Shown: positions 5,628 through 30,159 of the stretch, piece after piece
Numbering within the stretch: position 1 is the stretch's first letter
Layout: each line of letters starts with the position of its first letter
DNA from: Pelolinea sp.
Lineage (GTDB): Bacteria > Chloroflexota > Anaerolineae > Anaerolineales > Anaerolineaceae
Direction: 5' to 3'
Length of the DNA stretch: 64,000 nucleotides
NCBI GenBank assembly: GCA_012797975.1
Contig: JAAZOD010000031.1
Coordinates: forward strand, 1-64,000
The notes under the pieces: generated by a model
What the model was told of the DNA's origin: nothing
Database searches by the model: none
What the model saw: the letters and a program-made list of their open reading frames with translations, nothing else
Program-made: the position numbers and the translations under genes

Positions 5628-6950
5628 TTATACCGGTATGTTCACTTTTTGATTGTTTTTCTTCCAGTAACTTTCATAATAGGATGCGTTTTTATGCCCA
5701 CTTTTCACTTTTTTCAACAGGTCATTCCACAGAATATAATGATCCTTCTCTAACTGAAAAGCCCGTTTGGAAATTTGGCCACATTCCTCATTGCGCTTCT
5801 CTGCCATGATCCATTCATTAATTTCATCTTCCACTTGCTCGATATTGGGCTCCAGCGCGCTCAGCCGGGCATGAAAATCTTTCAACACACGCCGGTGAAT
5901 GACCTCATGCTCCCACCACAGACTATCTTTCGTGAATTGCTGTTGCGGTTCAGGTCCGATATCCGGCAATCCACCATTCATCCAAACCGGTTTGAACACC
6001 GACAGACAGGGGGCTGCAGTACCGGTGACCCAATGCGTGATCGCATCGTGCTTGAACTGGGTGATCAAGGAACCCGTAGTCTGACTACTGCGGATCGGGC
6101 CGGGGCCTGCATGCATGCACACATTCCAAGCGGTGAGCGAACGATCAGGGAAACTCGAAGCTGGGTTCAGGGAATGAGATCGCAGTACATTTTTCATGAA
6201 CTGTAAATCGATCTTGCCTCTGTTTTCTTCGAAAGCGTTCATCACATGACGGCGACGTTCACGCCCCTGACTGAGTGGCGTATAGATCGCATCCGCAAAG
6301 GCCTCCTTGAAATTAAAATGGTTTCGATCTTTACACCATTTTCTTTCCAGCGCATAATCGATCAGGCCGTCCGAGATCATGTCCCATTCCGCGGTAATGC
6401 TGATCGCATTGGAAATGGCGTAAAAATCCTGTACCTTTTTCACGATCCACATACGATCGACCATCTCCAACACATACGCCTCTTTGCCATCCATGATGAG
6501 GTAGCTGTTATGGTAATACAATCCGTGTTCCCTGCTGCAGTTCCCGCTCTGGCCGTACTGTTGCAACAGATTGGTGATGGTCTGTACCGCAACCCGTGCG
6601 GAAGAGGAGCGTTCCAAAGCCAGGCGCAAATAATCCATCCCGATCAGCCCTGGTTCCTTCAATGCTGGCACTTTGGAAAAGATCGCTTCATTTCCAATGA
6701 CCACCCCACATTCGTTGGCACCCATCTCTGCGCCCCACATCCAGTATGGTTTGGAAAGCAGCACCTGATAGGTATGTCGCACCTGCGGAATGTCTATGTA
6801 AGTACAGTGAACTCGGGCATCCTTCCCATAATCTTTAGCGGGTATCATCACCAGATACTGCGCTTCATTGGGGTCCCGGTCGGAGTTTTTTGCAAAGAAC
6901 GCTTCTCCGTTTTTTGTGGCAGTTGCAAGCACAACACTGGTATCACACAT
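5628..6950 (-). CDS. C69 family (Ntn-hydrolase) dipeptidase/secernin-like peptidase
   Basis: 440 residues beginning Met-Cys-Asp-Thr. In peptidase family C69 the second residue Cys becomes the N-terminal nucleophile after Met removal. The following FFAKNSDRDPNEAQ pattern is the family signature (Asn-Ser-Asp-Arg near residue 22). The substrate is probably dipeptides or small amides; the exact specificity cannot be told. No signal peptide is seen, so a cytoplasmic location is inferred. The ATG lies one base after the cmk stop codon, so translation is probably coupled to cmk. Its link with cytidylate kinase or the glycan genes is unknown. Confidence 0.85.
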   Translation of the reverse strand: MCDTSVVLATATKNGEAFFAKNSDRDPNEAQYLVMIPAKDYGKDARVHCTYIDIPQVRHTYQVLLSKPYWMWGAEMGANECGVVIGNEAIFSKVPALKEPGLIGMDYLRLALERSSSARVAVQTITNLLQQYGQSGNCSREHGLYYHNSYLIMDGKEAYVLEMVDRMWIVKKVQDFYAISNAISITAEWDMISDGLIDYALERKWCKDRNHFNFKEAFADAIYTPLSQGRERRRHVMNAFEENRGKIDLQFMKNVLRSHSLNPASSFPDRSLTAWNVCMHAGPGPIRSSQTTGSLITQFKHDAITHWVTGTAAPCLSVFKPVWMNGGLPDIGPEPQQQFTKDSLWWEHEVIHRRVLKDFHARLSALEPNIEQVEDEINEWIMAEKRNEECGQISKRAFQLEKDHYILWNDLLKKVKSGHKNASYYESYWKKNNQKVNIPV

Positions 6951-7648: not shown

Positions 7649-9346
7649 TCATGATTTGAACCACACCGAGAAACTGGTGACATTGAGTGATGCTGTGCGG
7701 TATATTAACCATTCTAATATCTCATCCGGAAGAAATCCAGAAAAATCTTCACGAACCCAGGCAACATCACTGGATAAAACGAAATTTTCACTTTCATGAT
7801 CGTTAAAGGTATAGGAGGCATCCGCATCCGTAATAAAAATATCATAATCAACACCATCCAAGGCAGTGGGATCATCCACCACGCTGATGGAATAATTACG
7901 TAATGCCCATTGCAAACTTTCCGTGCGTTCTTTCATGGAAAGCGCAATGGTGATCTCTTTAGGGCTGATGGATTTTTGTGTTCGATAATTTTCTATTTCT
8001 TCCAGCAACAGATCCGAATTTTTGAGATAAGGCGCTTCGCGCATCAGTTCATACTCATAAGTTCCGGTAATATTTGCGGAACGATTTGCATTTCGGACCA
8101 TCGTGAAAAAGCCACACACTAAAAGCAGCGCCGAAAGCACCTGCACCGTTCGGGTCCATGACCAACCATAAGCGTACAAAAGAACAAACAGGATGCATAA
8201 CAACAGTGGAGAAACCAGCAGCATCAGGTTTGTCGTGAGCTCCATACCAGCAGATAACAAATAATGCAACCGCAGGATTTGGAAGGAAAGAAAAACAAGG
8301 ATCGCAATGCCAACCAGGAAAGGAACAAGAATGGTTTTTCTTTCCCGCCAGGTCGCAGAGCCAATCTTCACCATGCAGCCGGCCGCCATCACCCACATGG
8401 GAACACACATCCATACTGCTTCATAGAAAGAGAATTGCGGGATCAAGAAGACCACCATCCCGAGCAAAATCCACACCAGCAGAAATAGATTTTTCTTATT
8501 CTCTTGCTTCTCGGTATGAAAAAAAGCAGCGATACAAAAGACGATGGCATAGAAAGCATAAAAAAGGAATGCGACCAGCCGCACATCGGTAGAAAGAGTC
8601 ATTTCCGGATCTCCGACCGTGGATCCCGGAAAAATTGACAGCAGTGCTTTTACCGGTGACCATAATCCGCTTGGTTCCGTTGCCAAACGTGTGCTGATCC
8701 CCAGCCATAACAAGAACAGGATCAGAAGCAGGTGCATGTTTTGTTTTCGGAAAAGAGGGATATCGATCTCTTGGTGGTCTTCTATCCGCACTTCTTTGTG
8801 TGATAACAGCCAGGTTACCCCGTACGTCATCCCTGTAATGAGAAATCCGATCCAGAAGGTTTTTCCGCTCAATAAACCAAATGCAAAGGTCACCACAGCG
8901 GCTGACCAGTTCCGCTTGAGAAGAAACACAAGAAGGAAAAGGATGAAGACCATGCCGATCATCACGTCACTGGCAGCCCTGGCGGTTTGGATCAGGATTG
9001 GATCGAGCGCCAGACAGATCGCCAGAACAACTGCTGTTTTCTTTTCAAGCAGCGGTTCCAACAGAAGGGGCAGGATCACGATCAGACTGCCCAGCAGCGC
9101 CGGGACAACGCGGGCAGAAAAATTGCTGCTTCCAAATATGGTGAAAAGTGTGTCCGTGAAAAAGAGATAGATCCTGGAAATGGCATCGCAACCGGAACGC
9201 TCTGCATCCACAGCACACAGGGCCTGCTGGGCTTCCGGATTGGTCAGAGGAACGCTGTTGAGGTTCAGCAATCGAAATGCAACCGCAATGATCAAAATGA
9301 TCCCATAGATCCACCGGGTTGCCGTATCTTTTTCAAAGATTTTCAT
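7649..9346 (-). CDS. GT39-family (PMT/ArnT-like) membrane glycosyltransferase
   Basis: 565 residues with about ten to twelve predicted membrane helices and a soluble C-terminal tail from about residue 440. The N-terminal pattern (first helix, short loop with NPEAQQALCAVD, then helix and FGSSNFSARVVPALLGS) is that of dolichyl-phosphate-mannose-protein mannosyltransferase/ArnT-type GT-C enzymes, which transfer sugars from polyprenyl-phosphate donors on the outer face of the membrane. The acidic residue of the first loop is a Glu rather than the usual Asp-Glu pair. It lies 11 bp behind the DUF2298 gene. Donor and acceptor are unknown. Confidence 0.75.
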   Translation of the reverse strand: MKIFEKDTATRWIYGIILIIAVAFRLLNLNSVPLTNPEAQQALCAVDAERSGCDAISRIYLFFTDTLFTIFGSSNFSARVVPALLGSLIVILPLLLEPLLEKKTAVVLAICLALDPILIQTARAASDVMIGMVFILFLLVFLLKRNWSAAVVTFAFGLLSGKTFWIGFLITGMTYGVTWLLSHKEVRIEDHQEIDIPLFRKQNMHLLLILFLLWLGISTRLATEPSGLWSPVKALLSIFPGSTVGDPEMTLSTDVRLVAFLFYAFYAIVFCIAAFFHTEKQENKKNLFLLVWILLGMVVFLIPQFSFYEAVWMCVPMWVMAAGCMVKIGSATWRERKTILVPFLVGIAILVFLSFQILRLHYLLSAGMELTTNLMLLVSPLLLCILFVLLYAYGWSWTRTVQVLSALLLVCGFFTMVRNANRSANITGTYEYELMREAPYLKNSDLLLEEIENYRTQKSISPKEITIALSMKERTESLQWALRNYSISVVDDPTALDGVDYDIFITDADASYTFNDHESENFVLSSDVAWVREDFSGFLPDEILEWLIYRTASLNVTSFSVWFKS

Positions 9347-9357
9347 GTCATCACCTT

Positions 9358-11877
9358 CTACGGAACTTCGTATAAATTTGTGCCATTTTCCTGCAGTACC
9401 AAGAGCAGATTTTCTGCAAACTTTTGCTCACTGACCGAATAACTGCTGCGCTCCAGATATCCGCTAACCACATAGCGAATATTGTATTGATGGAGAATGA
9501 GTTGAGCGGTTGCCCAATCGGTTGTTTCATACAATGTTTTGATGTCTGCTTGCCGCGAACCCATCTCACTGTACCCGCCACGCCACTGCACTTCATGACC
9601 CGGCCAGCCCAGCACCGTCGGATAACCGCTCAGCGTGGCAATGCGCGCATACCCGCTGTAACTGCCTCCTACCGCTTCGGCCACCACGCCATAGGGCAAA
9701 GTTTTCAACTTATCGACCACTGCCCAATCCGCTGAATTGTTCATTTTCGCAGAAGCGGTTCCATCCAGCGTCCAGTTATCTGCGCTGGTATAGCGAATCC
9801 GGTCATAATAAATGAAAAATGAATATGCACAGCACATGATCAGAACAAGAATGGATGCAATTCGAAAAAGGGTACCCCATGCTTTTTTAAGAGCATTCCA
9901 AAGCACCACCAAAATGAACGAGCCGGCAAGAGACCACAGGATCCAGGTCTGAAAATAGAATTTGAAAATAGTATTCATGCGGTCGGAAAACACATCCACT
10001 AAAAAGAAAAATTCGGGAATCATGCACAACCCGCAACCCACAAGGATGAGCAGCAGCACAAAGGAGTGGATCGGAGCATGTTGTGCGGAAGTGGAATTCG
10101 CTTTCCCTTCCTGGTCGACCGGTTTGCGGAAAAAGCAGCGCACTACAAAATACAATATTCCGAACAGCAGCAGCACCACACTGGAATCCTGCACCCGCCT
10201 GCTGAAGGTTTCTTTCATGAGCGTTTGAAGATTCACTGCCCCATAGATCGCTGCGAAGGATTGCGCCTGCTGGATCGCCTGACTGAGCGGATTTTCCAAT
10301 CCACCCAACCAGTTTTGCAGCCCGGTCCATACCGATACTGCCAGTTGCCTGGAAAATGGGAATAATAAGCTGAACACGCACAAAAAGATGAAAAAGAGCA
10401 AACCATACGGCAGGATCTTTTTATCCGGCGCCATTTGCCTGTGGTTCAACCACAGTAGATAGCCCACGATCAGGAACAGGAAAGGGAAGAACATCACAAG
10501 AAATTGAATTCCCCTGGTTCGGTAGATCAGACTGGGCAGGATGCCGCCCGCTTGAGAAGCAAAACCCAAGAAGAAGGGTAGATAAATCAGCACACAGGCA
10601 AATGCCATCAAAGCGATCTTCCACAGCAGTTCTCCTGCACCTTGCCAGCTCCATCCGTTTTGTTTGATAAAACACAATAAAAACACCAAGCAAAATAAGC
10701 CAAAGGTGGCTGGAAAATCCCAGGTGTTCAAAAACAAAATACTGCCCAACACCAGTGCAGAGAGCCAGAACCGTCCCTGCGTTATCAATTTTTTCCAATT
10801 TCCAGATTGCAACAGCCAATCTCCGCCCCCATAAAAAAGGTTCAAACTCAACGCAATGGTCAGTAAAAAGAAGGGGATCGAAAGCACATGCGGATGCAGA
10901 TCCGCCAGATAGAAGGTAAAAGCTGGTGTTTCATCGATCACTTCCCTGAAATTTCCGCCTGCATCATAATCGCTCACCACACGCGATGCACGCCACCACC
11001 AAGTGCCGCCAAGGCGCTGCGGAATCCATTGGGCTTCTCCTGTTGGAGGTTGATTCAATTCCTGAATATCAAGCCATTCCCAAAAAGCGGATTGCTGGTT
11101 CCCCTGCGCATCCGCACTCCAGAATGTGCCGGAAGCATGCAGCATCTCCAATCCCCCTTCGGCGTTGCTCACCACTAGCAGAAAAATGGGTGCCAATAAA
11201 CCGAGCCACAAAATCTTTTTTCGCATTTTTTGCAAATCTGTTTGTCTATGCGCAAAATAGGCGCGAAGAAGATCGACCAGGATTCCATACACAGCGCTGC
11301 AAATCAGCCCCACCCACACAGCAATACCAAGGTTGAAAGCCACCCCCCCGCTCACCCCGGTGATAACAGCCAGCAGCGCGACCATCAAATATCCAAAGTA
11401 ATAATACGAGATGGCATACCCTGACAACCATGGATCGCTGGGCGGGAATTTCGGGGTTTCCAGAATGGCATTGATGAAAGCCAATTCCATCGGTTTCTCT
11501 GTTCCCGATGCGGCCGGCGACATCGCACGCAGTAATGCGGCAATCACGAAAGCTGCCAGAAAAACCAGCTCTACCATACCCATATAGGATTTCTCTTCCA
11601 GCAAACTTTGCTTGATCTCTATTTTCTTACGGATAAAGATATACAGGTTGAGTGCCGCCAACAGCGCCAAGGTTACAATTGCTCCTAGCAGATTGTTTGA
11701 CAGCAGTTGATAGGTATTGGTAATCCAGTAGAGAAACCCCCATACCAGCAGGCCTACAATCTTTGCAAATGCGTATCCCCTGCATTTGACCTTCGGAAGC
11801 AGTAGGCTGGTAAGCGGATAATTCACCCACCCTAAAACCAGCAGGAAAAGATACCAACGAACCATCGCCAAGATCAT
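9358..11877 (-). CDS. DUF2298 (Chlor_Arch_YYY) multi-spanning membrane protein
   Basis: 839 residues, many membrane helices, homologous along its length to the C-terminal half of the next gene. Shared features: EKPMExAxxNAI then FPPSDPWLSGYAISYYYFG (about residues 128-163, the triple-Tyr signature), a Asp-x-His-Pro-His loop, NTWDFP, and RMNTIFKFYFQ. The family is known mainly from Chloroflexota and archaea and has no established biochemistry; the architecture is GT-C-like. The ATG is 3 bp after the stop of the 1730-residue gene; a second ATG four codons on is possible. Acting on a polyprenyl-linked sugar is inferred from context. Confidence 0.85.
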   Translation of the reverse strand: MILAMVRWYLFLLVLGWVNYPLTSLLLPKVKCRGYAFAKIVGLLVWGFLYWITNTYQLLSNNLLGAIVTLALLAALNLYIFIRKKIEIKQSLLEEKSYMGMVELVFLAAFVIAALLRAMSPAASGTEKPMELAFINAILETPKFPPSDPWLSGYAISYYYFGYLMVALLAVITGVSGGVAFNLGIAVWVGLICSAVYGILVDLLRAYFAHRQTDLQKMRKKILWLGLLAPIFLLVVSNAEGGLEMLHASGTFWSADAQGNQQSAFWEWLDIQELNQPPTGEAQWIPQRLGGTWWWRASRVVSDYDAGGNFREVIDETPAFTFYLADLHPHVLSIPFFLLTIALSLNLFYGGGDWLLQSGNWKKLITQGRFWLSALVLGSILFLNTWDFPATFGLFCLVFLLCFIKQNGWSWQGAGELLWKIALMAFACVLIYLPFFLGFASQAGGILPSLIYRTRGIQFLVMFFPFLFLIVGYLLWLNHRQMAPDKKILPYGLLFFIFLCVFSLLFPFSRQLAVSVWTGLQNWLGGLENPLSQAIQQAQSFAAIYGAVNLQTLMKETFSRRVQDSSVVLLLFGILYFVVRCFFRKPVDQEGKANSTSAQHAPIHSFVLLLILVGCGLCMIPEFFFLVDVFSDRMNTIFKFYFQTWILWSLAGSFILVVLWNALKKAWGTLFRIASILVLIMCCAYSFFIYYDRIRYTSADNWTLDGTASAKMNNSADWAVVDKLKTLPYGVVAEAVGGSYSGYARIATLSGYPTVLGWPGHEVQWRGGYSEMGSRQADIKTLYETTDWATAQLILHQYNIRYVVSGYLERSSYSVSEQKFAENLLLVLQENGTNLYEVP

Positions 11878-11880
11878 CGG

Positions 11881-14800
11881 TTACTCCATCACTTCCAAAA
11901 TGATTGTATCCTTATATGTGTAAACTGTCTTCCAGTATACGCCTTCATAGGTGGTGAACTTCTCCAAACCATCCTGAGTGTAGCGAATGCGCTCCAATTG
12001 CCCCAGGACAATATATTTCACCGTATATTTTTCCAGGAATTGCCTGGCAGCGTTGACATCCGCAGTGTTATAAAAAGCATCCACATCGCTGATGCGATCG
12101 GTGACCCAATTGGAGGGCAGAATCGTTTTCTGCTGCCGCTGATGCCAATCCCAGCCGATCACGGCCGGCAATCCGGTATAGATCGAGTAACGGTTTCCCC
12201 ATTGGTAGAGTGAGGAAGTGCCTTCCACAATCACCGGTGACCCCTCGACATTTTCCTGCATCCAACGGATGGCTTGATAATCCTGCTCTAGGTCCATGGT
12301 GACGCCATCTTGCCAGTAAACCGAGGTCTTCATATACTCCATTCCGTCCAATGTCAACGGCACAGCATCCGAAATGCGATCGGTCACCTTATCGATACTG
12401 GCAGCAATCGGAAAGAGCAGCCCACATGCCACCAGTGCGATCCCGATCCCGCGCCAGGTTTTTTTCCATGGTGCCACCTGCGGTCTTTTCAAACGCGGCA
12501 GCAGGTCGATAAAACAATAAGCAGCACTGATAGCAAGGAAAGTCCAGGCCTGCAGGTAAAACTTGAATACCGTGTTCATTCTGCCCACATCCCCGGTCAG
12601 CACAATCACTTCCACCATCAGGATCATGGCAAAACCAGCCAGCAGGAAAAGCAAGATTACCCGATCTGTGAGTTCTATTTTTTTGTTCACGAAAAGGAGG
12701 AGCGCCCAGATCAGCAATGGAAGCATGATCAACGCAATAGATATACCCTTGACCAACAGTCCGATCAACACACCACCTGCCAGAAATACAGCCAACCACA
12801 GCAGACCCTGATAAGGGTGCAGTTTTTTCAGATAGGAAATCGGCGTTTCTGCCAGCCAGTCGCGTGTCTTGATGACCAACCACGATATGATAAAGAAAAG
12901 GAAGATGCCCCAATGCATAAACAGGGAGGAGAGTGGTGTATGGCTTCCTGTCCATCCCTGAACGCTGGTATAACCAGCTCCATACGCATTGTGATACGGG
13001 AGGAAGAATAGATAGGTCGAACCGGCAAAGATGGCCAGGGAGAGAACACACGAAATGACAACTCGCACCGTCTGCGGACACTGCGGGAACAATTGCGGAT
13101 AATAGCGCCTGTGCGTCCAATATTCATATCCGATCGCCAACAGTCCCAGCAAGAGGTACACCGGATAATCCCAAGTATTAGTGGCAGCCAAAGACCCCAC
13201 CACCAGCCCGCCGCCCACCAGCAGCAGAAGCCATTCGCCATCCTTTTGGTCGTTGAACGCTTTTTGCCAAAAGACTATGGACAAGAAGAACCCCAGCGCC
13301 ATGAGCGTGATCGGATAAGCAAACAAATGGGCATGCGGATCGGCGTATAGAAAAGTGAAGTACGGAAATTCCGTGATCGCTTCGCCCGGTATGGTACGGC
13401 TGGGGATCCAGTACCAATCACCCGGATAATAAGTAAAAGGAGTGCCCTTCACAAACAGGATCAAGCCCTTAAACCACAGAACAATCGTTGACAAGAAACC
13501 CGAGCCATTCCCCAAACCAGCATTCACAGCAATTTGATAGATGCCGCTGAAAAACATACGAACGGTACCCAGATTACCGATGATCAGCACCGCCACTGCG
13601 AAGAGGATGCCGCTTTGCAAAGGCGTAAATCCTTTTTTCAACGAGGTTTGATTTTCAAGCCGTTTTGCCTGGAAGTTCCAGCCGATCCCAAATGCTCCTG
13701 TTCCAACAAAAGCAAAGAAAGTGGCCAGAATGAAGTTGTATGCAATGGATGGGATAATGCCCAGCCACTTGGTGAAGATACCCGCAATCAGTGAGCCAAA
13801 ATAGTAATAGTTGATGTATCCGCCAGCATACCATGGGTCATAGGGAGGAAAGACCGAGCTTTTGATGATCGCGTTGAAATAGGCAAAATCCATCGGCTTC
13901 TCGCCGCCCTTGTATTCATGCCAGAGGTCCGGGTTCCCTAATCGAATCAAGGTAAAAAAGACAAAAAATGCGAGAAATACCAGCTCCACCTGCAGCAGGT
14001 ATTTTTTACGATCCTGAAATTCCTGCCCTATCTCGTGCCGGTTCTTCCAAAACAGGATTCCGTTAAAAACCAGTATGCCCATAAATACCAGACTGATCAG
14101 CCAACGTTCCACCGGGATAGAAAACGACCCAAGCAGCCAGACCAGGGTGCCCAGCAGCAGCATGCCGAACAGCCGTGAAAACGCGTACCCTTTTTCTTTC
14201 AATCCTCTGAAAATGATACGGGTGGTCGGATAGACCACCAGTCCCAAACCAAAGATAGCCAGGTACCACACCACGATCCCAATCCATTGGTTCTGGTTCA
14301 AAATGGAGTCACTGGAGAAGAGTTCACTCCAGGTGCCGCCGCTGGTTTGTAGCTGCTGTTCTTTTGCGCTCAGCGAGAGATCTCCGGGAGTTTTACTGGC
14401 TGCGGCAGCCGTCAGGTAGATGACTTTATTCAGGTCCACCTTTCCTAAAATTGACCTGACGGTATCCATATTGAAAGCATCGGTTTTTTTGAAAATGAAC
14501 ACCTTGGGATGATCATAGACCGTAAAGGCCTCTTCCGCGTATTGGGTATTGATCGTGATCCCGGCAATATTTGGTTCGGATTGAAACACTTTCACCAATT
14601 CAAAACCAAGTTCTCCACTGTACATGCCCGGTTGAGCATCCCGGTAACAATCCTGCAGATCTCGATCAGCAGGGCAGCCCAGCAATGCGCGATAGTATGC
14701 CATGTTCAATGGATATCGTTCAGGAATCTGGGTAGTACTACCCCACTGCCGGTTGGAGGTTATGTAAATGTAATCCGCTTCTTCCAGTACAGAGTAGAAG

Positions 14801-17073
14801 TTTTGCAGTTGCTCGGCATTGTTATCGTTGTAAAGCTCCAGATTCAGATTGGAGTAATACACACCGGTGCTTTCGTCATAAGGGTTATATCCGTACAAAT
14901 AGAAAGGCAGTCCATCATCCCAGGAACTCTCATTTAATCGTTTACTGCCATAGATCGCCAGATCCCCGTCTTCCAGATCCGCTTGCAGGATGAGCGTATA
15001 CGATTTCCCTTTGGCCAACCAAAGAGGTTCATCGAAGGTTAGGGTATAAGCCGCACCTCGAAAATCCTTCTCCTCCGTGAAAGTCGAAACCAGTGTCCCG
15101 GTGGTCGAGGTAACCGTGCCTTCATCATTGGATTGAACACGAACCCGAATTTCCTTTTCGGTTGCACTTCCACTCCAATCCAGGATGCGGAAGAAGGTAA
15201 CGCCTTTCAGGGCGCCGTCTTCAAAAGGAGTGAACTGTACGCTGTAGGTGCCCATTTGCGAAAGTGACGGGGCACATTCAAAAATAGTTTGGGTCAAGGC
15301 ACTGTCACCATCCAAAACGCTCATTTTGAAAAAACCCGATAAGCGTAGTGCACTTGCCTGCCCGGATAGTTCTATCTGCAAGGCATATTCCGTACCTTTT
15401 TTCACATTTTGGGGTGTGGCAAGCTGGATCACCTGCGGATTGATCGACCCGCTGTCATTCCAGCCATCCAGAGTGACCGGAATATTCTGCAGGAATACCG
15501 GTTCACCATCCACCATTTCATAGAAGCTCACCGACAATGTCTGATCCGTGTATAAATCTGTAAGGTTCTGGATTTTCTCAATGCTGAAGGCAGTGAGCAT
15601 TTCATCCTGTTCGGGAGAAAAACGGAAGAAGATGGGATTGTTTTGGGTCAAATCGATGAAATGCGGATAGCTCAGCGGTTGGGTAAAATCTTCATCCACT
15701 GTGGAAATTTGCAGGTTGATCGGGCCTTCCACGTTCTTATAGACCCACTCGTTGGCAACCACACGCGTGACCGGTCGGGTATAAATTTCAGAGAAAGCCG
15801 CTGCCCAACTTGCGCCGCCACCCACAACGATCCCAAGTAAGCAAACCGCCAGGAGCATCTTCATGATCTTTTTCCCCCGCCATAGCCAGTCCACAGCATA
15901 ACTAACCAACCAGGCAGCGCAGATGGAAAGTGCCGGATAAACAAACAGCATGTAGCGCATGGTCGGATTCCACATCTGGCTCTGCCATCCACCATACAGA
16001 ATAACCCAGATCCACAACAGAAAATAGGGTTGCCAATCTCCTTTAATGATTTTCCATCCCATCACCACCAATCCGATCAGGGCTGGGATGCCGATCGGCA
16101 ACCCAAATCCCCATTCCAACAGGTTCTGCCAGGCAAAATAGGAAGGACGGCGCGCCCATTGAATGGATGGAGGATAATTAATATCGCCCGAACTGAGGAG
16201 CGATAACTCACGCAGGTTATCCAACCATTTTGGATTCAGGGATATGCCAAAGAAACCCGGGCCTGCAAACGCATAGGGTTGAAAGATGCGGAAGGTGATC
16301 AGGCAAGTAAATGCGGCAATGCCCAGATGGAGCAGCCATTGGTTGCGCCGCTGGGAGGAATTTTTCAATTCAGGAAAATCGCGCAAGATACCTGCCAGGG
16401 GCAGTAATAGGACACACACCACGGTATTGATCTTGGAAGCAGCCGCCAACCCTGACACCACCCCAAACAGCACATGCAATCCCACATCTCGGGATATATG
16501 CTTTTTACCATCGTCTTTAGGAATTCTTTTCTTATCAGTGAAAATGCAGATTGCCAGATAGAGCGCCAACGCGACAAAAAAATTAGCAAACGTATCAACG
16601 GTGAAATAATGTGATTGCTGGATGGGCAGGGTCGTCAATCCATAGAAAAGCGCACTCAACAAACTGACCGCTGGGTTTTTAAATAATTTTTGTGCAATGA
16701 AATAGACCAGTAGAACGACCCCCAGGTCAAAGATCGCAGAAAGATAACGTCCTACAATATGAACCTGCGAGTATCCGGTTTGGTTGAGTCCTTCAGCAAT
16801 ATAGCGCACCAAGAAAAGAGGAAAAGTCCCATATACATAAAACGTCTGACCGACATTATGCGGATTGAGCGTAGAGGTGCTGGTATTGAAATATTCTTTA
16901 ACGGAATCGACCGGATAGATGCTGTTTTCCACCATGGTTAAGAAACGTTCATCCGGGTGCAAATGATAATCCCCGTCCCAACGCATGCCCCTCATTCTCA
17001 GAAATGCACTGACCAGGATGATCAGAATGAGCAGCAGTACCTGCAAAGTTTTGGATTGAATTGCTTTTTTCAT
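11881..17073 (-). CDS. Giant fusion: N-terminal GT39 glycosyltransferase plus C-terminal DUF2298
   Basis: 1730 residues. Residues 1-430 form a GT39-type membrane domain with HPDERFLT in the first loop (the acidic pair typical of GT-C enzymes) and about ten helices. Residues about 430-925 form a large, mostly soluble, probably beta-rich region, expected outside the membrane. Residues about 928-1730 are a complete DUF2298 domain: GGEKPMDFAYFNAI, FPPYDPWYAGGY then INYYYFG near 1085-1093, the ADPHAH loop, NTWDYP and RMNTVFKFY. The last part duplicates the stand-alone protein encoded immediately downstream. The reading frame is intact throughout. The fusion argues that GT39 and DUF2298 units act together. 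Confidence 0.87.
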   Translation of the reverse strand: MKKAIQSKTLQVLLLILIILVSAFLRMRGMRWDGDYHLHPDERFLTMVENSIYPVDSVKEYFNTSTSTLNPHNVGQTFYVYGTFPLFLVRYIAEGLNQTGYSQVHIVGRYLSAIFDLGVVLLVYFIAQKLFKNPAVSLLSALFYGLTTLPIQQSHYFTVDTFANFFVALALYLAICIFTDKKRIPKDDGKKHISRDVGLHVLFGVVSGLAAASKINTVVCVLLLPLAGILRDFPELKNSSQRRNQWLLHLGIAAFTCLITFRIFQPYAFAGPGFFGISLNPKWLDNLRELSLLSSGDINYPPSIQWARRPSYFAWQNLLEWGFGLPIGIPALIGLVVMGWKIIKGDWQPYFLLWIWVILYGGWQSQMWNPTMRYMLFVYPALSICAAWLVSYAVDWLWRGKKIMKMLLAVCLLGIVVGGGASWAAAFSEIYTRPVTRVVANEWVYKNVEGPINLQISTVDEDFTQPLSYPHFIDLTQNNPIFFRFSPEQDEMLTAFSIEKIQNLTDLYTDQTLSVSFYEMVDGEPVFLQNIPVTLDGWNDSGSINPQVIQLATPQNVKKGTEYALQIELSGQASALRLSGFFKMSVLDGDSALTQTIFECAPSLSQMGTYSVQFTPFEDGALKGVTFFRILDWSGSATEKEIRVRVQSNDEGTVTSTTGTLVSTFTEEKDFRGAAYTLTFDEPLWLAKGKSYTLILQADLEDGDLAIYGSKRLNESSWDDGLPFYLYGYNPYDESTGVYYSNLNLELYNDNNAEQLQNFYSVLEEADYIYITSNRQWGSTTQIPERYPLNMAYYRALLGCPADRDLQDCYRDAQPGMYSGELGFELVKVFQSEPNIAGITINTQYAEEAFTVYDHPKVFIFKKTDAFNMDTVRSILGKVDLNKVIYLTAAAASKTPGDLSLSAKEQQLQTSGGTWSELFSSDSILNQNQWIGIVVWYLAIFGLGLVVYPTTRIIFRGLKEKGYAFSRLFGMLLLGTLVWLLGSFSIPVERWLISLVFMGILVFNGILFWKNRHEIGQEFQDRKKYLLQVELVFLAFFVFFTLIRLGNPDLWHEYKGGEKPMDFAYFNAIIKSSVFPPYDPWYAGGYINYYYFGSLIAGIFTKWLGIIPSIAYNFILATFFAFVGTGAFGIGWNFQAKRLENQTSLKKGFTPLQSGILFAVAVLIIGNLGTVRMFFSGIYQIAVNAGLGNGSGFLSTIVLWFKGLILFVKGTPFTYYPGDWYWIPSRTIPGEAITEFPYFTFLYADPHAHLFAYPITLMALGFFLSIVFWQKAFNDQKDGEWLLLLVGGGLVVGSLAATNTWDYPVYLLLGLLAIGYEYWTHRRYYPQLFPQCPQTVRVVISCVLSLAIFAGSTYLFFLPYHNAYGAGYTSVQGWTGSHTPLSSLFMHWGIFLFFIISWLVIKTRDWLAETPISYLKKLHPYQGLLWLAVFLAGGVLIGLLVKGISIALIMLPLLIWALLLFVNKKIELTDRVILLFLLAGFAMILMVEVIVLTGDVGRMNTVFKFYLQAWTFLAISAAYCFIDLLPRLKRPQVAPWKKTWRGIGIALVACGLLFPIAASIDKVTDRISDAVPLTLDGMEYMKTSVYWQDGVTMDLEQDYQAIRWMQENVEGSPVIVEGTSSLYQWGNRYSIYTGLPAVIGWDWHQRQQKTILPSNWVTDRISDVDAFYNTADVNAARQFLEKYTVKYIVLGQLERIRYTQDGLEKFTTYEGVYWKTVYTYKDTIILEVME

Positions 17074-17091: not shown

Positions 17092-19140
17092 CTACTTTTG
17101 TACACGGATCTCGATAAAGTTCTTACCAGGGATTTCTGAAATATAAGTATACAGCGTGTTGTTTGGAAACAAGCTTTGCAGGGCAGCCACATTGCCCACA
17201 TCTTCCGGTTTTAGAATGAACAGATAGGATCCCGCTTCCTGTACCACATTCCCGAAATCCTCTGGCCACAATGCATAGTCTTTGCGCGGTAATCCAGCAT
17301 TAATCCCAACCAGGCGGGTATCCACCCAATAGGGATATGGCACCACAAATGCATTTTGCATGTCTCCTCCCTCCTGATGGAAGCGTTGAATTTCGGCTGC
17401 CAGCTCCGAAGTGTTCCAGGCATTCAGATCGTATTCTTCGCGATACTGGTTGAAAACCAGGTCATAATTCTGCACCGCACAGCCCAACACGAAGGCAAAA
17501 CACATCCCGATCATGAGATGTTTGCGCATCTTTTGCGGTCGATCCCCCAGGTAATGTTCCACAATCTTCACCCATCCATACCCTGCCAGCACAAACACCA
17601 GCACATAGGCACCCCCCGTCCGATTCAAACAGGGATTTTCTCCTGGATAAACCAGTGAAAGAATGGAAGGCATCAACAGCAGTGGGATGGAAGTCAAGAT
17701 GGCTGTGGTCAACCAATTCTTTTCCCTGACCGATTCAAAAACAGCATAGCCAGTCCCAATAAAGTAAAGGGCTGCGCTCACCACATCCAGCGCAGGGCGG
17801 TTGGGAATAGAATGAACCCAGATCACCCCATTATTATTGAAAAACATGGTGATGGCATTCCAAAAATTGCTGCAGAAAATAAGCAGAGGATTCCCAGGAT
17901 AATCTTGATCCACCGGCAACAGACGCGAGGAAGCCCGATAGCTGAACATCCCCGGATTCTCAATGAGATAACGGAAGAGGGGTAGAAAAACAAAAAAAGC
18001 TGCCAGTGCCACCAGCAGATACATCCAAACGAGCTGGCTTTTCTCTTCTTTTGTCTTTAATTTCAGAAAGAAAATGAAACAGACAACGGTAACTACAATC
18101 GGCAAAAACCGGGTAGAACTGTAACCATGCAATCCCAATCCCAGCAAAAGGCCGGCCAGCAAAAAGTCATTGCGCCGCCTGGTGCGCAGTCCTTTGATCA
18201 AATAATAGAAGGTTGCAGCGGTGAATAGTGGATAAAAAGCATAACGCAATGCCACCCGCGAGATCACGTTCGGCCAATAGGCCATCCCTGCCAGGAATAA
18301 AGCTGCCAGCCCGGTCCATTTTCCGCCCAGTTCTTTCCCGATCAAGTAAATGAAAGGCAGGGTAAGCAAGCCTGCCAGCACCGTACCCAACTTCAAACTC
18401 AAAAACGAAATACCGGTATGAAAAAGTCTGATGATGGCTGCAGTTAGATAAAACTGCAGCGCTTCCCTGCCGGTATTGCGCACAAAGAAAATGGGGGTTG
18501 TCCCATCCAGTACATCCGCAACATCCAGCAGTTTTTCCGCATGATCGCTGTACATTTCGGATGGCACTTCGTTTAGATCGTAGACACGGAAGAAAATGCT
18601 GATGACGACCACCAGTACCACCAGCACTGTATAAGAGTCAATCGTCTTTTGTCGTGAATGATGTTCTCCTTGTTTTTCCCACACCGCCAGCACGAACAAA
18701 ACCAGCCCAATGGTCCATAAAGAAACATTGAGTAGGGTAAATCGATTGTCCTGAAAGAACCAGAAGGCGGCAGCCAGAAAGACGGTAGCCGGGATCAAGA
18801 ATTGGATGCGCACTTCCTGTGTAACTTGCCAACCTGTTTCTTTCGCTTTCGGTCCATGAGCACGGTTTAGCAGAAAAAAAGACAGCAGAAAAATGGCGGA
18901 TGCGCCGTAGCCCAGAATCCCAAACGCAACCTTTCGATTTGCCGGTTCCAGAAAATATTGTCCGATCAAAGCCATTAACAGAGCGAACAGGGGTAGAAAA
19001 GAAAAGGAAACCTGGTTTCTTTTTTCCGCCACAGTTGGTTTTGGCAGGGATGCTTCCTGCAAATTCTTGCGGTATTTTTCAGGTTGAAATTCCAAAAGGG
19101 ATTTCAGATAGTCCAGCAGACTGGGTTCTTTTTCAGGCAT
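17092..19140 (-). CDS. GT39-family (PMT/ArnT-like) membrane glycosyltransferase
   Basis: 682 residues. A soluble N-terminal stretch of about 45 residues precedes four helices, then a second membrane domain with the pattern MYSDHAEKLLDVADVLDG near residue 190, TGREALQFYLTAA and a following LxxLPFIYLIGKELGG helix. This is the ArnT/PMT layout, with the acidic first loop placed after extra N-terminal helices. The C-terminal 150 residues are soluble. The start codon directly abuts the TGA of the methyltransferase gene (TGAATG), so translational coupling is likely. Donor sugar unknown; a polyprenyl-phosphate sugar is expected from the family. Confidence 0.75.
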   Translation of the reverse strand: MPEKEPSLLDYLKSLLEFQPEKYRKNLQEASLPKPTVAEKRNQVSFSFLPLFALLMALIGQYFLEPANRKVAFGILGYGASAIFLLSFFLLNRAHGPKAKETGWQVTQEVRIQFLIPATVFLAAAFWFFQDNRFTLLNVSLWTIGLVLFVLAVWEKQGEHHSRQKTIDSYTVLVVLVVVISIFFRVYDLNEVPSEMYSDHAEKLLDVADVLDGTTPIFFVRNTGREALQFYLTAAIIRLFHTGISFLSLKLGTVLAGLLTLPFIYLIGKELGGKWTGLAALFLAGMAYWPNVISRVALRYAFYPLFTAATFYYLIKGLRTRRRNDFLLAGLLLGLGLHGYSSTRFLPIVVTVVCFIFFLKLKTKEEKSQLVWMYLLVALAAFFVFLPLFRYLIENPGMFSYRASSRLLPVDQDYPGNPLLIFCSNFWNAITMFFNNNGVIWVHSIPNRPALDVVSAALYFIGTGYAVFESVREKNWLTTAILTSIPLLLMPSILSLVYPGENPCLNRTGGAYVLVFVLAGYGWVKIVEHYLGDRPQKMRKHLMIGMCFAFVLGCAVQNYDLVFNQYREEYDLNAWNTSELAAEIQRFHQEGGDMQNAFVVPYPYWVDTRLVGINAGLPRKDYALWPEDFGNVVQEAGSYLFILKPEDVGNVAALQSLFPNNTLYTYISEIPGKNFIEIRVQK

Positions 19141-19947
19141 TCAATCCTTTCTGGCGATATAGAAAGTATAACTGCCTTCCGGATGGATAGGATTTTGAAC
19201 ATACTGTTTGCGCAGTCGCTTTTCAGGGATGAAAGGATTCCCGTGCAGCGGGAAGAGGATCCATTTTCCAAATACTTTTTTATTGATCAAGGATGGCAAC
19301 CCAGCATAATGTCCCCATTCCAAAGTCCGCAGATTCTGTGGGGTGAAATAATGCCACCACTTTTCTATACGAAAACCATTTTTGGCCAATCTGGCCTGCC
19401 ATACCTCTACCGCGTCTGCATGATGATGGCGTGAGATAAAGTTAAAGAAATTCCGGTAACCATCGGCCAGTCCATGCAACCCGATGCGATCCAGAGCATT
19501 GCTGATAGAAAGGTTTGTCAACAATTTCTCGTTGGGAACACAAAAAACGAACAGGCCTGCGGGTTTTAGAACCCTCCGGATCTCAAGCAGCACCTGTTCC
19601 AATTCCGGAATATGTTCCAGAACGGAATTACTGATGACGGTCGAGAAAGAGGCATCGGCGAATGGGATGGCTGCCCCTCCGGCGCACAGGATGCTGCTGT
19701 AGGCCACACGGTTGGCTGGCTCAAGCAAACTTTGAAATGCAGGGTCAAAACCAACGGTGATCTTTTTATCGAACGTGATTTCGGCAAAAATCCCATCCCC
19801 ACAGCCCACATCCAACACCGGTTCAGTCAGAGCCATATCATCATAAAAACGGCTTTCCACCGCGCGCAGAAAAGCCCTGAAATACGGCAGCCGCTTCAGA
19901 TTCTCCCACAGGTAATCTTTCTTTTCGATCTTTGTTTGTTCTTCCAT
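19141..19947 (-). CDS. Class I SAM-dependent methyltransferase
   Basis: 268 residues. Motif I VLDVGCGDGIFAEI lies near residues 45-58, followed by IPFADASFSTVISNSVLEHIPELE (motifs II-III region) and LKPAGLFVF, as in the Methyltransf_11 group. The substrate cannot be told. Its position between a GT4 transferase and a GT39 transferase suggests methylation of a sugar or a lipid-linked glycan. It starts 3 bp after the GT4 stop codon. Confidence 0.85.
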   Translation of the reverse strand: MEEQTKIEKKDYLWENLKRLPYFRAFLRAVESRFYDDMALTEPVLDVGCGDGIFAEITFDKKITVGFDPAFQSLLEPANRVAYSSILCAGGAAIPFADASFSTVISNSVLEHIPELEQVLLEIRRVLKPAGLFVFCVPNEKLLTNLSISNALDRIGLHGLADGYRNFFNFISRHHHADAVEVWQARLAKNGFRIEKWWHYFTPQNLRTLEWGHYAGLPSLINKKVFGKWILFPLHGNPFIPEKRLRKQYVQNPIHPEGSYTFYIARKD

Positions 19948-19950
19948 TAT

Positions 19951-21120
19951 TTATTGATTCTTGATCTCGTCCGTGATCTCAGCAAAAAGAATCTCATACT
20001 GCCGGGCTATTTTATCCGGAGAGTACATATCCTTGATGGCCTGTGCATCCGCATGGAATGCTGCAGGGTGTTGTGCAATTTCGATGACCGCTTCAGCAAG
20101 TGCATCCGAATTCCCGACCTCCACCACCTTTCCCATGGCATGGCACAGCACCGGCTGGCGCACTCCGGGAAGATTGGAAGCAACGCTGGGTTTTCCATTC
20201 ATCATGGCCTCAATCTGCACCAGCCCGAAAGCTTCGGTGGAATTCAAGCTGGGAATCACCAGCATATCAATATTAGGGTAGTACACTGCCATTTGTTCCG
20301 GGTTCAAAGTGCCCAAGAATTTCCAGGCGCCCTGCTCGATCAATGCTTGAATGGCTGGTTCCAGTCGTTTGAAATAAGCTTCTTCCCCGATGATATTTTC
20401 ATAGGGCCCGGCGAACCATACCTGGACTTGCGGGCATGCCTCACGGATGCGCGGCATGGCATTCAGCAGAACTTCCACACCCTTTTCCGATGCAAAGCGG
20501 GCTGCCATTCCAATGATGGGATGTTGATCTTCAGGGTTTTGTTTTTTTCTAAAGTCTTGGATCGCCGCCAGTGTTGCAATTGGCAGTTCAACCGGCGGTG
20601 GAATGATGCGTAATTTTTTACGGAACCTTCTCAAGTATGGAGAGTGGTCGGCATAATCTTGTGTATAGGTTACGATGCGGTTGGTATTCAGGGCAGCCAG
20701 TTGATTCATTACATGCACGCCCTGATTCGCCAGCCAGCTCATGATGCCCCAAGGCATGCGCAGATCGCAATGATAGGTTAGCACGATCGGTTTTTTCCAA
20801 ATCCTGCCGCGTAAAGCAATTCCGGCCGCATCGATCTGCGGCAAATGCAGATGGATGACATCATTTTCCTTGACGAGCTTCGTTGCCATCCGGCCCAGCG
20901 AAGGCATCACCACACCCTTGCTGATGCGAAATAGCACCGGCAGGCGGATCACGTGCACGCCATCCATCCACTCATCGCGCGCCAGTTTTTTATCGAACTG
21001 CGAGGTCAAGACCGTGACCTGGTGTCCACGTTTGGCCAGTGCTTTGGCCAATCGTTCGGCATAAATGGTCAATCCGCTGGTATGGGGTCGATAATAGGTA
21101 AGCTCGATCAGAATCTTCAT
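19951..21120 (-). CDS. GT4-family glycosyltransferase
   Basis: 389 residues with the GT-B two-domain layout. The N-terminal domain opens MKILIELTYYRPHTSGLTIYAERLAKALAKRGHxV, with a donor-binding C-terminal domain containing GMAARFASEKGVEVLL and the E-x7-E motif in SLNSTEAFGLVQIEAM. Cytoplasmic, using a nucleotide sugar. The ATG at 21120 is preferred over an in-frame codon at 21153, which would overlap the preceding epimerase gene. It probably adds a sugar to a lipid-linked intermediate before export; this is inferred from the neighbouring flippase-like and GT-C genes. Confidence 0.88.
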   Translation of the reverse strand: MKILIELTYYRPHTSGLTIYAERLAKALAKRGHQVTVLTSQFDKKLARDEWMDGVHVIRLPVLFRISKGVVMPSLGRMATKLVKENDVIHLHLPQIDAAGIALRGRIWKKPIVLTYHCDLRMPWGIMSWLANQGVHVMNQLAALNTNRIVTYTQDYADHSPYLRRFRKKLRIIPPPVELPIATLAAIQDFRKKQNPEDQHPIIGMAARFASEKGVEVLLNAMPRIREACPQVQVWFAGPYENIIGEEAYFKRLEPAIQALIEQGAWKFLGTLNPEQMAVYYPNIDMLVIPSLNSTEAFGLVQIEAMMNGKPSVASNLPGVRQPVLCHAMGKVVEVGNSDALAEAVIEIAQHPAAFHADAQAIKDMYSPDKIARQYEILFAEITDEIKNQ

Positions 21121-21125
21121 ACCGC

Positions 21126-22148
21126 TTAATCTTCTCGAATGCTCTCCACCCAATCCACCAGGCGCGAAATACCTTCGTCAACATTGATTTGCGGCTGCCA
21201 GTTGAGGTATTGTTTTGCCTTGCGGATATCCGATACATAGATCTTTTGATCACCCGGTCGCCAGGCAGATGAGGCGGTAGGAATTCTTTTCCCGATCTTC
21301 TTTTCCAACAAGGGTGCGAATTCCTGCCAAACCGAGATGGTGTTCGCAGGTCCTCCGCCAACATTGAAGGCCTGCCCGGCTGCCTGATCGATATTCTGGA
21401 TGGCGCTATCATACACGTTCAGCAAATCCTCGACAAAAAGTACGTCGCGCACCTGCTTGCCATCACCATAAATGGTAATGGGTTTATTTTGCGTGGCAGC
21501 AATGGCAAACCATGCCAGCCAACCCTGATCTTCTATCCCAAATTGGCGCGTCCCATAGATGCAGCTCTGTCGAAAGACAACGCTGCGGATGCCGTAGATG
21601 CGTTGATAGTCGCGCACATACTGATCTCCGCAGCCCTTCGAACAGCCATAGGGAGAATGAAAATCCAGCGGGTAAAGTTCCGGGATACCAAATGGGTAAT
21701 CTGCATATGCATAGCGTGTGGCTTCTTCTTTCACCGCCACATCTTCCATACCACCATAAACCTTATTGGTAGAAGCATAAATAAAGATCGGCTGTTGGCC
21801 GTTCTTGCGAGCCGCTTCCAGCACATTGAAAGTTCCCAACGCGTTGATCTCAAAATCTTCGCGAGGGTCCACCACCGAAGTGGTGACCGCAACCTGGGCA
21901 GCCAGGTGCACGATGACCTGTTTTCCGTTAGCTGCTTTCTCCAAAGCGGAACCATTGCGGATATCCTCCTGAATGAACTGAAAGGCGCTCATGCCATGTT
22001 GTGTATACAACCACTCTAGATTTTTCTCAGTGCCGTCGCGAGAGAGATTATCGTAAATGGTTACATCTTCTCCTCTTGTCAAAAGCCGGTGGGCATAGTT
22101 CGATCCGATAAAGCCAGCGCCTCCGGTGATCAGATATTGATATGCCAT
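21126..22148 (-). CDS. NAD-dependent sugar epimerase/dehydratase (CDP-paratose 2-epimerase-like SDR)
   Basis: 340 residues of extended SDR type. The dinucleotide site TGGAGFIGSNY is at residues 8-18 and the catalytic Tyr-x3-Lys is in SPYGCSKGCGDQY. DNLSRDGTEKNLEWL after the second strand resembles CDP-paratose/CDP-tyvelose epimerases more than GalE. It probably makes or interconverts a nucleotide sugar for the transferases around it. The exact substrate is not proven. It lies 2 bp after the flippase-like gene and 5 bp before the GT4 gene. Confidence 0.83.
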   Translation of the reverse strand: MAYQYLITGGAGFIGSNYAHRLLTRGEDVTIYDNLSRDGTEKNLEWLYTQHGMSAFQFIQEDIRNGSALEKAANGKQVIVHLAAQVAVTTSVVDPREDFEINALGTFNVLEAARKNGQQPIFIYASTNKVYGGMEDVAVKEEATRYAYADYPFGIPELYPLDFHSPYGCSKGCGDQYVRDYQRIYGIRSVVFRQSCIYGTRQFGIEDQGWLAWFAIAATQNKPITIYGDGKQVRDVLFVEDLLNVYDSAIQNIDQAAGQAFNVGGGPANTISVWQEFAPLLEKKIGKRIPTASSAWRPGDQKIYVSDIRKAKQYLNWQPQINVDEGISRLVDWVESIRED

Positions 22149-22150
22149 CG

Positions 22151-23167
22151 CTACTCCTTCTTCTTCAACCGATCAAAAACTTTGCCTATTAATGTGCTGA
22201 GGGAGTTGCCCTGCGCTGCCAGACTGATGATGCCCAGTGCAGCGATCGTCACCAATTGCACAGCATGCATGATGATGGCAAAACTCAAAGCGGTTTCCTT
22301 TTCGACAGAAAAGACGCTTAAAGCTGCCACCAATGTTCCTTCATAAACTCCCAGACCAGCCGGCGCCGATGGTAACGCAATTCCAAAAGACAGGATGGAT
22401 TGCATGAAAACGATCTTCCAGAACGGTTGGCTGCCGATGAAGCTGGTCAATAAAATAAATGAAACAGAGATCCACATAGTCCAACAAAGGGCAATAAAGA
22501 GAACCGCCAAAAGGATCCTTTTTGGATCCTGAATGACCTGTGCACCTTTGATGATCGCTTTCAAATTCGGGCTGATATAAGTTCGAAAAAATCTTGATCT
22601 CTGATCGGCGCGGTCAAGCCACGCTATGACCGTTTCTTGTTTCCTGATCGCCCAGAAGAGGAACAGAAAACCAGCCAATACCACACCTAGAATGGTGATC
22701 GCCACCGGAGTGATCCAATCCATCGCGATCGCATTTCCAACCGTTGAAAGGAACATGATGGCTGCAATTCCAAGGTCGATGGCGCGCTCGATGATGATGG
22801 TGGACAATGTTTCGAAAAAGTTCATTTGCACTGCGCTGTTTACCAATAAGGCACGTCCTACCTCACCGGAGCGGGGAATAATCTGGTTGAGCAGATATCC
22901 TTCATTGACGATGCAGAATGCATCCTTTAAATGAATCCTTCTGCCTAGCAATTCCCGCCAGGCAGCTGCACGCGAAAGGTTTGCCAGCACCATCAAAATA
23001 AAAGCAATGCCGACATACAGATAATTTGTTTTTTTCAATGCGCCGAACAGCGTATCGATATCAATCAATCGATACAGCACATAGATGACAATCGCACTAA
23101 CTACCAGACCCGGAAGCCAACGTTTCCATGAATTTTTTGATGTCGTTTGTGAGGGCAATTTATTCAT
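22151..23167 (-). CDS. Flippase-like integral membrane protein (LPG_synthase_TM/UPF0104, YbhN-type)
   Basis: 338 residues, about eight membrane helices. Family landmarks are visible: [39 protein letters not shown] and [13 protein letters not shown]. Relatives include the membrane part of lysylphosphatidylglycerol flippase MprF and many proteins encoded beside glycosyltransferases. A role in moving a lipid-linked intermediate is plausible but unproven. Its start overlaps the lepA stop by 8 bp, which ties the glycan genes to lepA translation. Confidence 0.83.
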
Positions 23168-30099: not shown

Positions 30100-30159
30100 G
30101 ATATCTTCTCCCAACGGATCTTTTTAATCCATCTAGTTCAATAAAATGAATAGCAAGTT

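Follow-up and report, generated by a model that had tools for sequence, protein, structure and literature searches.

A stretch of 64,000 nucleotides from Pelolinea sp. (contig JAAZOD010000031.1, positions 1 to 64,000; hereafter, the window), which is contig C14 in a genome of 2.57 Mb and 98.5% completeness, raises the question of what DUF2298 membrane proteins do and what kind of protein one of them has been fused to. Two adjacent, intact open reading frames (ORFs), both on the reverse strand, as are all the parts of their products described below, encode a fusion protein of 1730 residues (11881–17073) and a stand-alone, or solo, DUF2298 protein of 839 residues (9358–11877). The solo ORF begins 3 bp downstream of the fusion ORF, its product has the same core motifs as the fusion and is predicted to form a single glycosyltransferase C (GT-C) module, and the two genes account for the only two copies of DUF2298 in the genome. 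The closest relatives, judged by the fusion protein, are Anaerolineaceae. The structural models described here suggest that DUF2298/TIGR03662 is probably a branch of the GT-C enzymes, that is, of extracytoplasmic membrane glycosyltransferases using polyprenyl-phosphate sugars, and that the fusion probably unites two such enzymes within one gene cluster.

Both DUF2298 domains of the window are full-length members of the family. Among hidden Markov models (HMMs), TIGR03662 matches residues 929–1710 of the fusion at 518 bits and residues 2–838 of the solo protein at 422 bits (cut-off 300), and PF10060 matches the two at 377 and 345 bits, respectively (cut-off 27.8). The original prediction listed a series of motifs common to the C-terminal half of the fusion and its neighbour; every one of them is present in both proteins, and the similarity extends beyond the YYY motif (BLASTP, 193 bits, E 2e-54, 27% identity over 872 columns), with a raw alignment score of 619, as opposed to a maximum of 93 among 100 shuffles preserving local composition. 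In the solo protein, the motifs include EKPME (residues 127–131; 11485–11499), DLHPH (residues 326–330; 10888–10902) and RMNT, from residue 633 (9943–9981). A chimeric or artefactual origin of the fusion ORF was ruled out, as the same architecture is found at more than 70 loci.

DUF2298 has no assigned function in the libraries and literature searched. Two papers in that literature mention it, none mentions COG5427, TIGR03662 or TIGR03663, and no naming of DUF2298 as GT-C was found there (the Pfam clan list lay outside this search). The original prediction treated it as a family without known function; its predicted fold now provides a clue. An AlphaFold2 model (m60dc6426c3f4) built on 102 fusion and solo sequences reached a mean predicted local distance difference test score (pLDDT) of 92.5 and a predicted TM-score (pTM) of 0.93. 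When structural matches to this model were re-aligned with VIA-align, the top 40 rows were all GT-C proteins (Z 14.4–7.1), and unrelated rows scored no higher than 6.5. The best match was AftA (Z 14.4, 5.5 Å, 504 residues), followed by STT3 (12.9), ALG12 (11.8), Pmt4 (11.7; 4.1 Å, 353 residues), AglB (11.2), DPY19 (11.1) and ArnT (10.8); ALG9, ALG3, PglB, AftD, AftB and a GPI-transamidase subunit were also among the GT-C rows. The top Foldseek matches were DPY19 (1.8e-6) and AftA (1.4e-4). The soluble C-terminal domain (fusion residues 1567–1730; 11881–12375) has the fold of the C-terminal globular domain of AglB (3vu0; Z 10.2, 2.5 Å, 118 residues). It follows a core of 13 transmembrane (TM) helices (residues 1023–1566; 12376–14007), itself preceded by three extra TM helices (929–954, 963–983 and 990–1010, within residues 929–1022; 14008–14289), which, in the model, set the core in the correct orientation, with the K/R-rich loops on the inner side. 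The DUF2298 half is, thus, likely to have a GT-C fold, and a chance match seems improbable given the uniform list of GT-C proteins, the drop in score before the next fold and the fact that the soluble domain matches separately.

Several observations nevertheless weigh against a GT-C transferase. The DUF2298 profile gave only chance matches to PDB sequences, and hhalign comparisons with three GT-C profiles reached only 0.6–39%; as sequence methods fail to reach it, the link to GT-C proteins rests on the predicted fold. Global superposition on GT-C structures is loose (root-mean-square deviation (rmsd) of 4–8 Å), Z scores of 11–14 are near the level that helical bundles can reach by chance, and the grouping of the conserved motifs is known by membrane side and topology, not by three-dimensional distances. 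The structural matches also include PIG-U (9ub7_B), which has the GT-C fold and, to our knowledge, is not an active transferase; as Agl23, too, is a reported flippase, the fold is no proof of transferase activity. The loose rmsd and the lack of a sequence-level link are what would be expected if the motifs belonged to a membrane protein of unrelated function, resembling GT-C proteins only as one large helical bundle resembles another, but this is very improbable, because the uniformity of the top 40 rows and the gap below them, the independent 2.5 Å match of the soluble domain, and a topology and motif positions that follow the GT-C plan all argue against such generic likeness.

The residues common to the two proteins were originally proposed to define an active site, and this proposal is supported by their near-invariance in fusions, solo proteins and divergent relatives. 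The residues invariant, or nearly so, in 68 fusions and 34 solo proteins are (fusion/solo numbering) E1058/E127, K1059/K128, M1061/M130, D1245/D326, H1249/H330, N1299/N384, D1302/D387, R1498/R633 and N1500/N635. They are not scattered, as judged by membrane side and topology: within the 13-TM core, every invariant residue lies on the predicted outer face. These residues comprise R1044; in external loop 1 (EL1), E1058-K-P-M-D/E1062, FPPxDPW and YYY; in EL2, up to TM4, N1167, R1226, E1235 and D1245-x-H-x-H1249; N1299 and D1302, between TM5 and TM6; and R1498-x-N to K1504, where a late helix begins on the outer side. The soluble domain contributes E1617, Y1623, R1628, GW1640–1641, H1644 and E1694. 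The first acidic site would be EKPM[DE] (residues 1058–1062; 13888–13902), in which E, K and M are invariant and position 1062 is D or E; it stands at the start of an EL1 helix (PM[D/E]), as does HPDER (PDER) in the N-terminal half of the fusion. The D-x-H-x-H motif of EL2/TM4 (residues 1245–1249; 13327–13341) is picked out by its conservation and topological position, with D1245, H1247 and H1249 conserved in at least 97% of fusions and solo proteins and retained in Halarchaeum and Pseudobutyrivibrio. RMNTxFKFYxQxW (residues 1498–1510; 12544–12582), at the outer start of the late TM helix, is set against MRYxLPIYP of the N-terminal half by a weak hhalign match (26.8%). Nearly all of the invariant residues are retained in two further copies, one on a clostridial plasmid and the other, which is partial, from a haloarchaeon; in the haloarchaeal copy, for which the alignment is less sure, D1302 is replaced by S. 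Fixed differences between fusions and solo proteins occur near the same motifs (GGEKPMD/GTEKPM(E), NYYY/SYYY, DxHAH/DxHPH and GWxxHQxQQ/GWxxHExQW), which suggests that their substrates differ, although both look active.

The metal ligands of AglB are Asp47, from the first DXD motif, and Asp161 and His163, from the second (Asp-His-His) (PMC8342417). In topological place and in chemistry, DxHxH corresponds to Asp161 and His163, and it is proposed as the counterpart of the second DXD metal site in AglB and other oligosaccharyltransferases (OSTs); the DUF2298 site is possibly OST-like and metal-dependent. An OST proper, transferring a lipid-diphosphate-linked glycan en bloc to protein in place of STT3/AglB/PglB, would account for DxHxH at this place, for the AglB-type soluble domain and for the genome's lack of an STT3 match (PF02516 has no match in the whole genome and none among the window proteins in a Pfam scan at E<1). 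This is quite improbable, however, as the WWDYG sequon pocket is found in 0 of 102 DUF2298 sequences, no STT3 HMM matches, and Haloferax and Methanosarcina each have both STT3 and DUF2298. If DUF2298 proteins are instead GT-C transferases using polyprenyl-phosphate sugars, the sugar-lipid would enter from the outer leaflet and have its phosphate held by R1498 and the N/D of NTWD, an EL1 acid (E1058 or D/E1062) would serve as the catalytic base or as a metal ligand, D1245-x-H1247-x-H1249 would bind a divalent metal in the manner of Asp-His-His in AglB, and the soluble domain (E1617, Y1623, R1628, GWxxH) would present the acceptor.

The N-terminal half of the fusion was labelled GT39 in the original prediction. 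This label is partly borne out, in that profile–profile comparisons and fold indicate a GT-C protein of the PMT_2 type, but no PMT, PMT_2 or GT39 HMM from Pfam or NCBIfam matches it, even at E<1. A model of residues 1–925 (m8887380672dd; pLDDT 92.0) matches AglB (Z 29.4), STT3 (28.6), Pmt4 (27.0) and ArnT (26.9). The profile of this half aligns with the family of the neighbouring PMT_2 protein, which carries PF13231 (hhalign 98.5%, E 1.7e-15), and with the Agl23-like protein of the same cluster (93.5%), and gives marginal matches to PDB sequences of STT3, ArnT and ALG9 (E 0.006–0.1). The membrane module occupies residues 1–445 (15739–17073); its EL1 motif is HPDER (residues 39–43), R373 opens a late TM helix (MRY), and D41, E42 and R373 are invariant across 67 sequences. 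On the basis of this model, the N-terminal half is a second GT-C enzyme, of the PMT_2 type, and the fusion is a GT-C + GT-C protein. The two halves would stand back to back, a PMT_2-type enzyme (residues 1–875) with lineage-specific β-sandwiches followed by a DUF2298 enzyme. An internal duplication giving rise to the two halves could not be demonstrated: with subprofiles, hhalign gave 27% between the two cores and 2% between the two soluble domains, and whole-profile hhalign matched only a 26-residue overlap.

The soluble insert of some 500 residues between the two membrane domains, previously considered unexplained, is present in the model (residues 450–870) and can be resolved into two β-sandwiches and a soluble domain belonging to the first module. 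The first β-sandwich (residues 446–603; 15265–15738), identified from the strands in the model like the second, is homologous to the single module of about 130 residues found in other Anaerolineae (hhalign 96.7%, E 3e-10). The second (residues 604–715; 14929–15264) is DUF4082-like: PF13313 matches it in 7 of 15 members, with a best E value of 4.8e-7 and a value of 1.2e-4 in the window protein, below the Pfam cut-off. The number of β-sandwiches varies between lineages, from none in SAR202/Dehalococcoidia and Ardenticatenaceae to one in many Anaerolineae and two (about 270 residues) in Anaerolineaceae and their close relatives. The α/β domain that follows (residues 716–875; 14449–14928) is present in all fusions and resembles an OST C-terminal domain; it most likely closes the first GT-C module as the soluble domain of that module, because the alignments of the N-terminal half to AglB (3waj) and STT3 (8agc) extend into it, as far as residues 866–868. 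A linker (residues 876–928; 14290–14448), with low pLDDT at about residues 899–925, connects the two modules. With Foldseek, the insert matched viral, phage and discoidin β-sandwiches, but these matches were judged generic, and it is a guess that the β-sandwiches of the insert bind carbohydrate or the cell envelope.

A scan of genome contigs yielded 77 loci. Of the 201 Chloroflexota genomes sampled, 137 have DUF2298, which also occurs in haloarchaea, methanogens and some Clostridia. The same fusion (1424–1773 residues where the ORF is complete) occurs in Anaerolineae, Thermoflexales, Ardenticatenaceae, Dehalococcoidia and SAR202; the solo copy directly follows it at nearly all loci of Anaerolineae, and no solo copy was seen in the sequence flanking the SAR202 fusions. 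A maximum-likelihood tree places every fusion in one clade and every solo protein in another (Shimodaira–Hasegawa-like approximate likelihood ratio test (SH-aLRT) 98 each), with a single change of label, a number as low as which was reached in 0 of 500 shuffles. As the two kinds of copy form separate clades, the duplication is ancient. The original prediction of a tandem duplication followed by fusion therefore stands only as an ancient event; a recent, local duplication is ruled out by the tree, and the adjacency of the two genes is conserved at most Anaerolineae loci. The tree is silent as to whether the fusion came before or after the duplication, its rows from archaea and Clostridia being long and unplaced.

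Other arrangements of these domains were also encountered. Chloroflexales-type genomes (families f20, f56 and f59) have ORFs of 2336–2774 residues in which two DUF2298 domains share a frame (L080–L084, L087–L089), with similarity to the N-terminal half upstream in the same frame in L080, L081, L083 and L084; apparently, three GT-C modules are joined here in one polypeptide. Locus L040 (7935–20645) has two tandem fusion genes followed by a solo gene, and L034 (3570–11706) combines a fusion with a second DUF2298 gene, closer to those with double domains, and with the beginning of a solo gene; in such lineages, the DUF2298 array is still duplicating. A typical Chloroflexota fusion of 1739 residues, with an extra domain of about 300 C-terminal residues beyond a DUF2298 match ending near residue 1436, lies on a contig labelled as a Bacillota metagenome-assembled genome (UR.bin48; L042:7947–13163), through misbinning or lateral transfer. 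A divergent DUF2298 gene retaining most of the invariant residues is carried by the rumen Clostridia plasmid pNP95 (Pseudobutyrivibrio; L092:5920–8175), next to O-antigen ligase and glycosyltransferase genes. In Halarchaeum pCBA1220-01 (L093:2–1837), a DUF2298 gene apparently spans the start of the plasmid record, where the PLSDB table has no feature.

In the window, the fusion and solo genes lie within a cluster on the reverse strand. Downstream from the solo gene is a TIGR03663/Agl23-like GT-C gene (7649–9346; 565 residues) scoring 44.8 bits, below the TIGR03663 cut-off of 126, and upstream from the fusion gene are a gene for a PMT_2 GT-C glycosyltransferase (17092–19140; 682 residues), identified by PF13231 (7e-11) and conserved synteny, and methyltransferase, GT4, sugar-nucleotide epimerase/dehydratase and TIGR00374 flippase-like genes (19141–23167). 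The Agl23-like gene is the conserved third member of the fusion–solo block, in the same order at most Anaerolineae loci, and this block extends beyond Anaerolineaceae; within this family, the conserved order is flippase-like, epimerase, GT4, methyltransferase, PMT_2, fusion, solo, Agl23-like and cytidylate kinase. A GtrA/DPMS_TM protein is present in the genome. The simplest reading of this gene content is that several GT-C enzymes of the cluster assemble a surface glycan, drawing on polyprenyl-phosphate sugars; the fusion, solo, Agl23-like and PMT_2 proteins would most likely add successive sugars to one surface glycan, glycolipid or glycoprotein. A C69/C45-like Ntn hydrolase gene (5628–6950) stays near the glycan cluster at many Anaerolineaceae loci, for no obvious reason, and an ORF of 357 residues (29041–30114) has no Pfam or NCBIfam match.

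The full member of TIGR03663/Agl23 in this genome is encoded away from the DUF2298 pair, on a different contig (C29:7451–9445), in an open frame of 1238 residues. TIGR03663 scores above its cut-off in 66 of 101 Chloroflexota genomes, 65 of which also have a strong DUF2298 match; the other (G025, 81% complete) has a DUF2298 fragment at the edge of its TIGR03663 locus (L090). The remaining 35 genomes have a strong match to neither family. The resulting co-occurrence (66/66 versus 0/35) has a Fisher p value below 1e-25, related genomes not being independent. The description of the TIGR03663 model also mentions this pairing with DUF2298. Such an exact association would be expected if DUF2298 were, like Agl23, a lipid-sugar flippase with a GT-C fold, or an accessory to one, and not a transferase. 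Haloarcula Agl23, whose name refers to the same family, is described as a hexose-phosphate-dolichol flippase that translocates a lipid-linked oligosaccharide in vitro and complements yeast rft1 (PMC11182771). A flippase role for DUF2298 is nevertheless improbable, because it is dense in invariant acidic, His and Arg residues, which lie entirely on the outer face instead of along a transbilayer path, and has a substrate-binding type of soluble domain in common with oligosaccharyltransferases, both features that look catalytic.

A polyprenyl-phosphate-sugar-dependent GT-C transferase is, thus, the reading that we favour for DUF2298. A bolder but unlikely version is that DUF2298 proteins form a class of their own among GT-C enzymes, metal-dependent and OST-like, in Chloroflexota, some Clostridia and some Euryarchaeota, acting with Agl23 in general surface (possibly protein) glycosylation, without or beside STT3, and that the fusion may be a two-site enzyme adding two sugars without release of the substrate. 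The predicted fold, the AglB-like domain, the catalytic candidates and the exact partnership with Agl23 make an orphan family directly testable, and the proposed assignment gives access to the surface glycans of a major phylum, the chemistry of which is poorly known. The back-to-back GT-C fusion is an unusual architecture suggestive of processive or coupled glycosylation.

Among known systems, AglB/STT3/PglB (GT66) have in common with the predicted structure of DUF2298 the GT-C core, 13 TM helices, an AglB-like C-terminal globular domain and, as proposed here, a DxH-type second metal motif on EL2, whereas DUF2298 lacks WWDYG and any match to the STT3 HMM, and has three extra N-terminal TM helices. 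The PMT/ArnT/PMT_2 enzymes (GT39/GT83-like) resemble the N-terminal half in the DE motif of EL1, the Arg of a late TM helix, the Z score of 27 to Pmt4/ArnT and the PMT_2 profile match; this half differs from them in its lack of a PMT HMM match, its own soluble domain, its β-sandwich insertions and the second GT-C module fused to it. As for the mycobacterial Emb/Aft arabinosyltransferases, DUF2298 has its best structural match in AftA, and the Emb proteins align over the membrane core and β-sandwich domains of the N-terminal half, but the motifs differ, and in the window protein the modules are inserted between the core and the soluble domain. Agl23/TIGR03663 is a separate family of the PMT_2 type, co-occurring exactly with DUF2298 across genomes and having a weak relative in the third gene of the block; hhalign (38.7%, 81 columns) provides no convincing sequence link between DUF2298 and the family of this TIGR03663-like neighbour. 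Both window domains are, finally, full members of DUF2298/TIGR03662 (Chlor_Arch_YYY), to which the present analysis adds a predicted GT-C fold and a candidate active site.

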